Assembly (NCBI GenBank): GCA_020002185.1
Contig: CM034539.1
Location: 31,394,541-31,458,540 of the forward strand
Direction of reading: 5' to 3'
Source: Paraescarpia echinospica
Taxonomy: Eukaryota > Annelida > Polychaeta > Sabellida > Siboglinidae
DNA: 64,000 nt
Shown here: in pieces, positions 20,129 to 36,973 of the stretch
How positions within the stretch are numbered: position 1 is the stretch's first letter
Layout: every line of letters starts with the position of its first letter
The notes under the pieces: generated by a model
What the model was told of the DNA's origin: nothing
Database searches by the model: none
Seen by the model: only the letters and a program-made list of their open reading frames with translations
Made by a program: the position numbers and the translations under genes

Positions 20129-20165
20129 CTAGTCACGATAATCCATTTCGATACTGGGACACGTA
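20129..20165 (-). CDS. Gene A exon 11: terminal exon
   Basis: After a TTTCTTGCAG acceptor the exon supplies the last base of Gly, then TCPSIEMDYRD and TAG. Its Cys completes the six-Cys set of the ShK-like tail begun in exon 10 (CPVTCG-TC). Gene B has the matching [11 protein letters not shown] and stop. Confidence 0.8.
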
Positions 20166-23100
20166 CTGCAAGAAACATCAGCAAATCACACATATCAACT
20201 ACTGTATCAAACACTGATTACTAATTAGTTTTTGCATATGTTCGAAATATCCCCCTTATAGCATTAGGTATGAATGATTTGAATCAATCGTCATCTTAAC
20301 CAGATTAGTTATTAGTTATTCCTCCTTGTTCCATGTACAGGGGCGAACGTTAGGTATAATACTATTGAACCGCTGTTTCTGCTCTTTCTTTCCATAACTT
20401 CCTGTTAGTAGCCGCCTCTCTTCATCACTCTTTCTTACTCGGCCGTTACATGTCCCTCCTGACACAGTGACGAACAGCAACGTTGGATGCGTTGACAAGA
20501 ATTATACTCAACATAAATGAACTATCCTGAAGAATAATTAGGTATGTTCTTTAGTTTGTCTTACTTACCCGCACGTGACTGGGCATTCTTTCTTCAGTAA
20601 CGGGCCCCAGCCACCGTCATGACACCAGCCAAATTTGTTGATCAACCACGACGCGCAAGTGATGGTCATGCGGAATTTCCTGAACGGACCCGGGTTGTTA
20701 ACGCATCCGCCTGTATAAGAAACAAAGTGTTATGTCTACGTGCTGAAAAAGCCTTGCTGGAAAATCCACATTCTCAAGGGGTCGTGGTTAAGTAAAGGAA
20801 GAGATACCTCCGTATTTACGGGTGGTAGCAACAATTCGCGATTTCTCCAAAAATAAATCGTTACAGTGGCGCCACATATTGGGTGAAAGAAATAATAATG
20901 AACATTATTATGGATATCAGTACCGGGCAGGTTGGTAGGTAGGGTCTGATGTATTGGGTGGTAGAAGTAGTAATGGACATTGGTGCTATTGTGGATATTA
21001 GTACCGGGCAGGTTGGTAGGTAGAGCCTGGTGTATTGGGTGGTAGAAATAGTAATGGACATTGGTGCTACTGTGGATATCAGTACCAGGCAGGTTGGAAG
21101 GTAGGGCCTGATGTATTGGAAACATGTTGGAACGTTCGAAGTCTCATGTTCCACACGAGGTATTGGTGGAGGTAGGAGGTGGTTTACACCAATACGAAAC
21201 GCTGTACGTCTTACTGGGTTTTGCGAATTTATATGACCACCTCGTAGGTTGGTGCTGGACTATCCAAATTGGCATTGTGCTATTCGTGGAATTTGAGCGT
21301 AATAATATATTATATATACACGAATTTAGAAATGAATATCCGTATTAAATGAATTTGGAAAATGGTTTGAGAGTCCTTCAAAATGGTATTGTATTTTATT
21401 TATTCACATTCCAACAGGTCCAGTGGACCCAATAACAAGACTGATAACTCAAACAATACATATAAATAATAAAACAATAATATAATAATAAAAACAATAA
21501 GAACAATAAGGACATAAAAACCACACAATATCAACATCAACTACACCAGGCAAACATCTGTTATACATAGAAATGTTTTTGAATTGAGGATCTAAATGGT
21601 TCAGCTCCTGAATATATATCATAAGCTGGATCACTTAAATACAATGTGTTGAAAGTAGTCATACATCTATTCAAAACACAGTGTTTTCGAATGTTGATTC
21701 TGCCATTGGAAACTCTAAAAGGGATGTAGTTTCGTAGAGAGCGTGAAGGACAGTGAAATTGGATAGCCCCTACCAGATACGACGAGTCTAGTTGGGAGTG
21801 CACATACTTGTGTAAAAACATAACATGTGCAACTTGCCTACGATGTTGAAGAGAAGGTAGTCTAAAATGATGGCAAAGCTCAGGATAATTGTCGGAGGAA
21901 TACTGTATTTTGGATTTGTAACATAGATATTTAATGAATTTCTTTTCAACTCGTTCGATTTTGTCAATAAACGTACGTTGCCAGGGATTCCAGATAACAC
22001 TGCAATACTCCAACTGGCTTCTGACTAGCGCTTAATAAAACCACTCATCTTAAAAGCTTTACAAACACAACGATTAATATGATCTTTAAAAGTCAAACTG
22101 TCGGTCAATGTGATACCGAGATCTTTGACAGCGGTGACCTTGGGCAGAGACTGGCTTAAAATCGTGTAGTCATAGGATATACGTTTCTTTTTGTTAGTGA
22201 ATTACATTATGCAGCATTTCTCAATGTTAAGTTTAAGGTGCCATGTCTCACACCAAAGACATACACTGTCCAGATCTTTCTGCACCAACTGACAATCGGT
22301 CACCGACGTAATTTCTTTAAACAATTTGGAATCATCAGCATACAATGACATTTCACATGAATCAACATGATTAGTGAGATCGTTAACATACAAGATAAAA
22401 AGAAATGGTCCAATTTGTGAACCTTGTGGTACACCAGACAACACTGGCTTCCAGTCAGATGCTTTGCCTTCGAGAACCACGCGTTGTTTTCGGTTGACAA
22501 GGTAAGACTGCAACCACTCTATGCATTGCCTGGAATAGCCGTATGCTCTAAGCTTGTGAATTAACAATGGGTGGCATACTGAATCAAAGGCTTTACTGAA
22601 ATCCAAATAAACAGAATCAACCTGTTTCTTGTTGTCAATAGATTCAGAAATGGTGTTCAAGTAACAAGCTAGATTAGATACTGTACTTCTACACCTCACA
22701 AATCCGTGTTGACTGCCCGAAATTGTGTTACGCACATGCTCATACAGTGAGTCGTATACGACTTTCTCAAAAACTTTGCTAAATAGAGGTAAGACAGAGA
22801 TAGGTCTGTAGTTGCACACATTTCGTTTATCTCCCTTCTTGTAGACGGGAGCAACATTTGCTCTTTTAAAACAAGTTGGAAAAGTTCCACAGTTTAAGGA
22901 CATATTAAAAAGCATAGTTAGTGGACCTGCTAATTCGGCAGCACATTCCCTAATGATTACACCTGATATATTGTCAGGACCGCATGCTTTGTTTACATCG
23001 GTGGTTCTTAGTACTCCGGTGACATCATCATAAGACACATTAATATTAGTGATGTATCATTATGTTGGAAGCAGGTGAACGTCTAGACTCCAGACGCTAA

Positions 23101-36320: not shown

Positions 36321-36937
36321 TAAATAATGAGTGTATATGAATGAATGAATGAGTTTATAAACCCGTTTCACTAAGATAATGAGTGTATATGAATTAACGA
36401 ATTAATTAATTAAAGAATGAATTAGTTTATAAACCCACCATTGTTAAGTTTAAGGAGCATTTGTCAAAAAGCAAAAATCACCACCGTATCACAGAGGAAA
36501 TATACTATTTCCGTGGCATACCGGTGAAAGTGTCCTAGTGACACGTCCCTGTGTTGACAGTTTTCAGTATACTGTTAAAGAGTGAAATCGGTTTTAAAGA
36601 GACAAATTCGGCTTAGAATAATGTTAGTGAAACTGTCCCGGGTCCATTCGACATCTTGGTTTCGAATGTGTTATGTCTCACGCAAAGAAATCAATGCTGC
36701 CACCAGTTTTTGCACTGAAAGACGTGATGCTGTTTCTACGTACCAAATTAAAATTGCTATTTGAATCTACGTTAATTTGACGATCGTACATCTACACTAA
36801 TAACTACTCCGAATCGCTACATATCAATTGATAATAAGTGTAATCATAATACCTCCCCATCATACAGTTAATGGTTATAAATATATGGTACGTAAACCAT
36901 CACTTATCATCAGGCGAACAAATCAAGTTTCTCTTAC

Positions 36938-36973
36938 CTTGAGAGAGTCAAAGTCGAGGAGCCGCTCGCAACT
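36938..36973 (-). promoter_or_regulatory. Non-coding first exon of gene A (predicted)
   Basis: About 36 nt between a likely start 31 nt below the TATA box (CCAGTTG) and a strong donor (CTCAAG then GTAAGAG). Splicing this to exon 1 would place the 5' UTR directly before ATG. Inference from spacing and splice motifs. Confidence 0.5.

Follow-up and report, generated by a model that had tools for sequence, protein, structure and literature searches.

A CAP-domain gene with FN2, ShK and EGF cassette exons, and its duplicated family, in the tubeworm Paraescarpia echinospica

Structure and modules of the gene

The window, by which we mean the whole analysed stretch of 64,000 nucleotides, contains a complete gene on the minus strand, with its TATA box at 36997-37005 and its stop codon at 20129-20131. 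Its 12 coding exons, joined along the minus strand, give one open frame of 445 codons plus the stop, with the module order signal peptide, CAP, FN2, ShK, EGF, EGF and ShK, and the 11 introns have, from 5' to 3', the phases 0,0,0,0,2,1,1,1,1,1,2. The features of the gene, and of two further family members in the same window, are listed below with the evidence for each in brackets.

36997-37005, minus strand: TATA box TATAAATAC (sequence)
36938-36973, minus strand: E1, 5' non-coding exon followed by a GT donor (conservation of donor and flanks in copies B and G)
35270-35395, minus strand: E2, start codon, signal peptide and propeptide start, phase 0-0 (exon joining, 15 genome E2 matches)
34308-34448, minus strand: E3, CAP helix 1, phase 0-0 (frame, paralogues, tubeworm proteins)
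32397-32561, minus strand: E4, CAP, phase 0-0 (exon joining, paralogues)
30698-30790, minus strand: E5, CAP, phase 0-0 (exon joining, paralogues)
29999-30102, minus strand: E6, CAP, phase 0-2 (exon joining, paralogues)
29220-29272, minus strand: E7, hinge after CAP, phase 2-1 (exon joining, paralogues)
28773-28928, minus strand: E8, FN2 cassette, phase 1-1 (exon joining, Pfam)
26993-27130, minus strand: E9, ShK cassette, fast-changing, phase 1-1 (exon joining, Pfam, codon rates)
24945-25037, minus strand: E10, EGF-1 cassette, phase 1-1 (exon joining, paralogues)
23375-23464, minus strand: E11, EGF-2 cassette, phase 1-1 (exon joining, paralogues)
20569-20710, minus strand: E12, second ShK domain, fast-changing, phase 1-2 (exon joining, Pfam, codon rates)
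20129-20165, minus strand: E13, last cysteine of the second ShK and stop codon (exon joining; conserved in paralogues)
55456-63005, minus strand: paralogue D, with E5, E6, E7, E11, E12 and E13 only
13341-15820, plus strand: partial copy in inverted orientation, with stop codons in EGF-1 and EGF-2, followed by an open tail exon

Judging from the position of the TATA box, transcription would start about 25-30 bases below it. The 196-base stretch comprising TATA box, E1 and donor is 95% identical between paralogue B and the window gene, and the same region is 87% identical over 202 aligned bases in paralogue G. An earlier note on this DNA had placed the gene on the same strand, with the same end points and in one frame, but counted 11 exons and 398 codons; the missing 47 codons are those of E3, which it had overlooked. 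The HNRHR motif and the CAP sequence around it are encoded by this exon, which has an open frame in 11 copies, the window gene counted (in copy B only its second half; copies P and U agree in it), and its residues are present in Ridgeia and Lamellibrachia proteins. An exon list without E3 was rejected, as the first CAP helix would go missing, yet four tubeworm proteins carry it. Another candidate exon piece, at 30280-30370, gave no fitting frame when read.

Every junction used has canonical AG and GT sites, as had been claimed. Among 93 exon copies of E2 and E4-E12 in the family, 89 have an acceptor AG and 92 a donor GT, by a lenient check that allowed the dinucleotide to lie a few bases away from its expected site. 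This conservation of splice sites in the copies, together with the four matching annotated tubeworm proteins, argues that the exon chain is not due to chance, and we regard the gene structure and the family membership of the window gene as almost certain.

The joined protein gives Pfam matches to CAP, fn2 and two ShK stretches. CAP (PF00188) scores 55.1 bits against a cut-off of 21.1, at residues 70-207 (profile 2-117 of 117); FN2 (PF00040) scores 22.4 bits in the whole protein and 28.1 alone, against 22.2; and ShK (PF01549, cut-off 20.9 bits) scores 21.2 for the E9 peptide alone and 24.7 for the tail alone. The EGF modules stay below the Pfam cut-off of every EGF family (best EGF_TEN, 19.2 of 65, and EGF_2, 15.9 of 22.1) and were called by eye on six cysteines with a C-x-C-x(8)-C end (Cys 327-355 and 358-387), which we take to be the EGF-like pattern. 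The domain set proposed earlier, from signal peptide to ShK-like tail, is thus present in the joined frame, and FN2, ShK, EGF-1 and EGF-2 are indeed single exons with phase 1 at both ends (E8-E11). These phases, and the general rule as given in the available text of PMC8001218, bear out the description of such class 1-1 exons as units of shuffling.

The best PDB matches of the CAP part (3q2r and 1rc9) are of the CRISP/GLIPR1 type, with which the gene has the CAP domain in common; in contrast to these, FN2 and EGF modules are added, and no Pfam Crisp domain is matched after CAP at E up to 1, ShK standing there instead. The FN2 module is alike by sequence to those of MMP-2, MMP-9, factor XII and fibronectin, whereas the window gene lacks any protease or fibronectin context. 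The protein has 35 cysteines, an odd number, so that a link between two chains is possible, which is speculation. C135 is absent in all 11 other E4 copies compared, and an extra tail cysteine, lacking in B and in the window gene (copy C), is found in 11 of 13 E12 copies; the tubeworm proteins P0001, P0002 and P0004 described below likewise have a seventh tail cysteine that the window gene does not. The predicted structure of the Lamellibrachia protein (four rows) has a mean pLDDT of only 31.1.

The window also holds mobile elements and repeats. A LINE reverse transcriptase piece (RVT_1) lies at 21387-23038 inside the E11-E12 intron, and 605 bases of the LINE end recur at 24158-24762 in the E10-E11 intron with 98.8% identity, so the insertions look recent. 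At 57045-58899 on the plus strand, between E11 and E12 of copy D, there is a reverse transcriptase like that of a Penelope-type element, with a weak GIY-YIG match below the cut-off (16.8 of 22.6 bits) in the frame at 57955-58899. An LTR-type element is represented at 9085-10400 (minus strand) by frames for an integrase core, a zinc knuckle and an aspartyl protease, and a 1210-residue open frame at 5406-9038 (minus strand), with an 18-19-residue repeat and no Pfam match, is probably a minisatellite and not a gene. No Rfam family reaches its gathering score within the window.

A duplicated family in vestimentiferan tubeworms

Searching the joined protein against its own genome (assembly of 1,083,790,144 bases in 3111 contigs) returned at least 96 exon-sized matches, among which at least 15 matches to the FN2 exon and at least 15 to the signal exon E2 were counted by hand; these numbers are lower bounds, as 95 of 208 candidates were scored. 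The matches cluster on contig C9 (31.35-31.50, 33.0-33.4, 43.4-43.7 and 48.1 Mb), on contig C10 (29.0-29.2 Mb) and on two other contigs. Some copies may be second haplotypes, and copy U, on a small contig, is the same as copy P in E3 and E4. Fourteen copies were read downstream of the CAP region (A, B, C, D, E, G, I, K, L, M, N, P, S and T, where C is the window gene), and F, H, J, O, U and V were seen only as matches or as one or two exons. The diverged copy R was read in part, with E5, E6, a diverged E9, a diverged E12 and a last exon with stop, and FN2 was not found in its stretch; for copy Q no convincing exon was found in the stretch examined. Seven other CAP matches lie outside the family clusters, at C7 24.7-25.1 Mb, C3 58.97 Mb and C10 19.2 Mb.

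Four annotated tubeworm proteins match 81-100% of the length of the window protein with 51-54% identity. They are, by their database names, Ridgeia piscesae NP493_1614g00018 and g00011, and Lamellibrachia satsuma LSAT2_006797 and 'Cysteine-rich secretory protein 3'; both genera are vestimentiferan tubeworms (Annelida, Siboglinidae) of the same family as Paraescarpia. Three of the models (P0001, P0002 and P0004) have CAP, FN2, ShK, EGF, EGF and tail in identical order, and P0003 has the same order and ends after EGF-1. A fifth protein, P0005, lacks CAP and ShK and consists of FN2-EGF-EGF-tail joined to a reverse transcriptase, a fusion that is probably a gene-model error. The remaining matches, in listings of 15 and 16, cover 22-40% of the query and carry CAP and no fn2 in their precomputed Pfam assignments, and residues 286-507 of P0002 used as query matched four proteins, namely P0002 itself, P0001, P0004 and P0005. 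The shared scaffold number of P0001 and P0003 suggests a tandem pair of these genes in Ridgeia too. The tubeworm proteins differ from the window gene in an extra stretch between signal peptide and CAP, which partly matches E2b, a 38-codon exon of copies B, T and G (31 of its 38 residues found in B; phase 0-0 in G, by eye) that left no trace in the window gene.

The same domain order, which the earlier note had proposed to look for in related genomes, therefore exists in Ridgeia and Lamellibrachia. The note had also called the domain set unusual. In the searched protein database this is the case, since the full module set was found outside vestimentiferans in no protein at E up to 0.001, in a search that is blind to relatives sharing no short exact word with the query; it does not extend to CAP with ShKT and EGF, a combination known from the snail Cumia reticulata, whose CAP-ShKT proteins, some with EGF, are specifically expressed in the salivary gland according to the available part of PMC6409789. 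As described there, the type II CreCAP-ShK proteins resemble the window gene in being secreted CAP proteins with a spacer before and mixed ShK-like and EGF-like modules after the CAP domain, and in stemming from a lineage-specific duplication, and differ from it in their irregular module order and in being products of a mollusc salivary gland; the likeness is one of description only (PMC6409789). The word fibronectin is absent from the Cumia paper (PMC6409789). What is new is thus the FN2 module and the tubeworm expansion. Our literature search returned no paper combining CAP domain, ShK, fibronectin type II and EGF, and none with both siboglinid and ShK as whole words; CAP domain and ShK go unmentioned in the main texts on Ridgeia, Riftia and L. 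luymesi, as does ShK in that on P. echinospica.

Loss of modules and rates of change

In 11 of the 14 copies all four cassettes, E8-E11, are kept as exon-like stretches, those of E10 in copy I and E8 in copy S being damaged though kept. The other three have lost one to three cassettes: FN2, ShK and EGF-1 are gone from copy T as from one deletion, FN2 plus ShK, and EGF-1, from copy D as from two, and ShK from copy N, where 6.7 kb of other DNA stands in its place. The acceptor AG is missing at E9 in copies E and I and at E11 in copies S and T, and E/I and S/T are sister pairs in the tree with 99% support each. In 36 copies of E2 and E4-E7 the same check showed every acceptor to be present and a single donor to be absent, that of a frameshifted E6 in copy L which the match does not cover to its end. 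Although E11 of copy T has lost its acceptor, a cryptic in-frame acceptor seen by eye farther upstream could extend the exon, and the idea that this exon is skipped was therefore set aside.

Losses are found in the CAP region too. Copy D is without E2-E4 in the window and in the next 20 kb, and most of the CAP region of copy G is deleted, the start of E3 being fused in frame to the end of E7 (L053 1303-1371) with removal of nearly all of CAP. The promoter of copy G sits between a signal exon and the fused E3/E7 exon, and we set aside a reading of G as a CAP-less gene with its own signal exon, as the promoter lies after that exon. A second E2b-like stretch is present upstream of copy G, in L058. 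A C-terminal part with almost no CAP in copy G, and the P0005 model with neither CAP nor ShK, lend a little support to the idea that a CAP gene and an FN2/ShK/EGF gene have been wrongly joined in the window, which the earlier note had named as a possible refutation; the same chain, however, occurs in annotated proteins of two other genera and is collinear in many paralogues, and we consider two separate genes scarcely credible.

Further lesions are present in copies L (stop in E6, E12 frame), S (E8 and E12 frame) and E (E12 frame), so that some of the losses belong to genes on their way to inactivation, and errors in the assembly may have increased the number of apparent losses and lesions. 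The earlier proposal that the cassettes can be lost freely agrees with the frame-keeping losses in T, D and N and with the missing acceptors of E, I, S and T. It goes too far in the word freely: as 11 of 14 copies keep all four cassettes, FN2 and EGF taken together are constrained, and CAP exons are lost in D and G, the loss is neither free nor specific to the cassettes.

In order to compare the modules, omega was estimated per exon with a codon model on one fixed tree and 2dlnL was taken against omega 1; at fixed omega 1, kappa was tried on no more than a small grid, so the 2dlnL values may be slightly too high, and the ShK grouping and its test were chosen after the pairwise values were known. 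Omega was 1.66 for E9 (2dlnL 4.2) and 1.64 for E12 (4.7), against 0.73, 0.77 and 0.55 for E8, E10 and E11 (1.1, 0.6 and 3.3) and 0.67, 1.02, 0.41 and 0.64 for E3, E4, E5 and E6; the FN2 and EGF exons differ significantly from 1 only in sum, not singly. Joined over 14 copies, ShK gave 1.70 (2dlnL 10.0) and FN2+EGF 0.66 (5.0), and the CAP exons E3+E4+E6, over 13 copies, gave 0.75 (3.2). The ShK value was 1.50 (5.3) without C and 1.51 (4.3) without B and C. In the eight copies whose analysed stretch is free of lesions (A, B, C, G, K, M, N and P) it was 1.94 (11.1), in the seven of these without C 1.66 (5.6), and in seven copies with gapped codons removed 2.04 (11.4). FN2+EGF gave 0.57 in the eight lesion-free copies. 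For CAP we obtained 0.65 without C, 0.56 without B and C, 0.93 in the eight copies, not different from 1 (2dlnL 0.12), and 0.73 in the seven without C. Omega thus ranged over 1.5-2.0 for ShK, 0.49-0.66 for FN2+EGF and 0.56-0.93 for CAP, the rate of which lies between the other two and is not clearly constrained.

A codon bootstrap of the eight copies gave 1.36 (0.90-2.10) for ShK, with 7.8% of values at or below 1, 0.37 (0.22-0.62) for FN2+EGF and 0.73 (0.46-1.22) for CAP; ShK exceeded FN2+EGF in 2000 of 2000 replicates and CAP in 97%. Intron flanks differ on average by 0.11-0.28, with pN of both ShK exons at 0.19, and 10 of 11 copies retain the full set of six E9 cysteines. Among the five tubeworm proteins average identity is 45% in E9 and 54% in the tail, against 75% in FN2 and 78% in E6; it is 45% in the signal exon and 46% in EGF-2, the latter lowered by the wrong end of P0003. 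The contrast in rate between ShK and FN2+EGF is firm, and ShK roughly keeps pace with the introns or, by the likelihood test, outpaces them. Positive selection on ShK is likely but not proven, as near-neutral drift between conserved cysteines is also compatible with a bootstrap interval that includes 1 and with the divergence of the intron flanks.

In several exons the rate of the window gene itself exceeds that of its relatives; either positive or relaxed selection could account for this, and the gene might be a decaying duplicate, still open after selection has gone. Its dN/dS against the other copies is near or above 1 in E3, E6, E7, E8, E9 and E12, the 0-0 exon E2b of B, T and G is not found in it, and Gln stands in the window gene where B, D, T and P0001-P0004 have the His of the CGHYTQ signature, a residue of the CAP cavity (this His is absent from the diverged copy R as well). 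Against this, all 12 exons are open, the splice sites are intact and the promoter is conserved, and EGF-1 (0.40) and EGF-2 (0.46) of copy C look constrained, E4 (0.67) and E5 (0.78) mildly so, which makes decay improbable in our view.

Possible roles of the modules

FN2 and EGF modules bind matrix or other proteins in known cases. Our preferred reading, held tentatively and at somewhat less than even confidence, is that the window gene encodes a secreted protein of a duplicated family, in which FN2 and EGF form a steady frame and ShK contacts a target in recognition or defence. Phase 1-1 exons would have come together to form the C-terminal half before Ridgeia, Lamellibrachia and Paraescarpia diverged. 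The signal exon predicts secretion; CAP, FN2 and EGF would fold the protein and hold it in body fluid, mucus or the extracellular matrix, FN2 and EGF being the steadiest parts, and the two ShK modules would be the variable, target-contacting surface. Secretion and the holding and contact roles are inferred, and a role in defence or symbiont contact, though our best guess, is by itself rather less likely than not.

The main rival to defence or symbiont contact is a role in the tube or mucus matrix, where the product would be a structural protein of chitinous tube, mucus or matrix, its EGF and FN2 modules binding matrix and its ShK modules drifting because they matter little. A near-neutral ShK rate would be compatible with this, and the available text of PMC8476170 reports an expansion of EGF-domain proteins and fibronectins in vestimentiferans, which it relates to tube formation; the same text names no CAP or ShK protein among the tube proteins. 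An ShK omega above 1 by likelihood, and the retention of every E9 cysteine by 10 of 11 copies amid change at other positions, speak against it as well, and we judge a structural role rather unlikely. By analogy with what has been proposed for the Cumia CAP-ShK proteins, the product could instead be a toxin-like or deterrent secretion. The salivary-gland CAP-ShKT proteins, some with EGF, of the available part of PMC6409789, and the fast ShK modules, would agree with such a use, which seems very unlikely in a worm that is gutless and dependent on symbionts (PMC8476170, available text).

A more specific form of the recognition reading would be a private, expanded tubeworm recognition set, in which a CAP head is followed by a steadier FN2-EGF frame that displays two ShK modules under positive selection, copies drop modules frame-neutrally, and the targets are possibly symbionts or microbes met during infection; in this full form we think it unlikely. 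The family nevertheless offers a natural experiment on exon shuffling, with a six-domain gene present many times in one genome and several independent cassette losses that keep the reading frame, and the contrast in rate among its modules points to the ShK modules as the likely contact with a partner that itself changes, in a symbiont-dependent animal.
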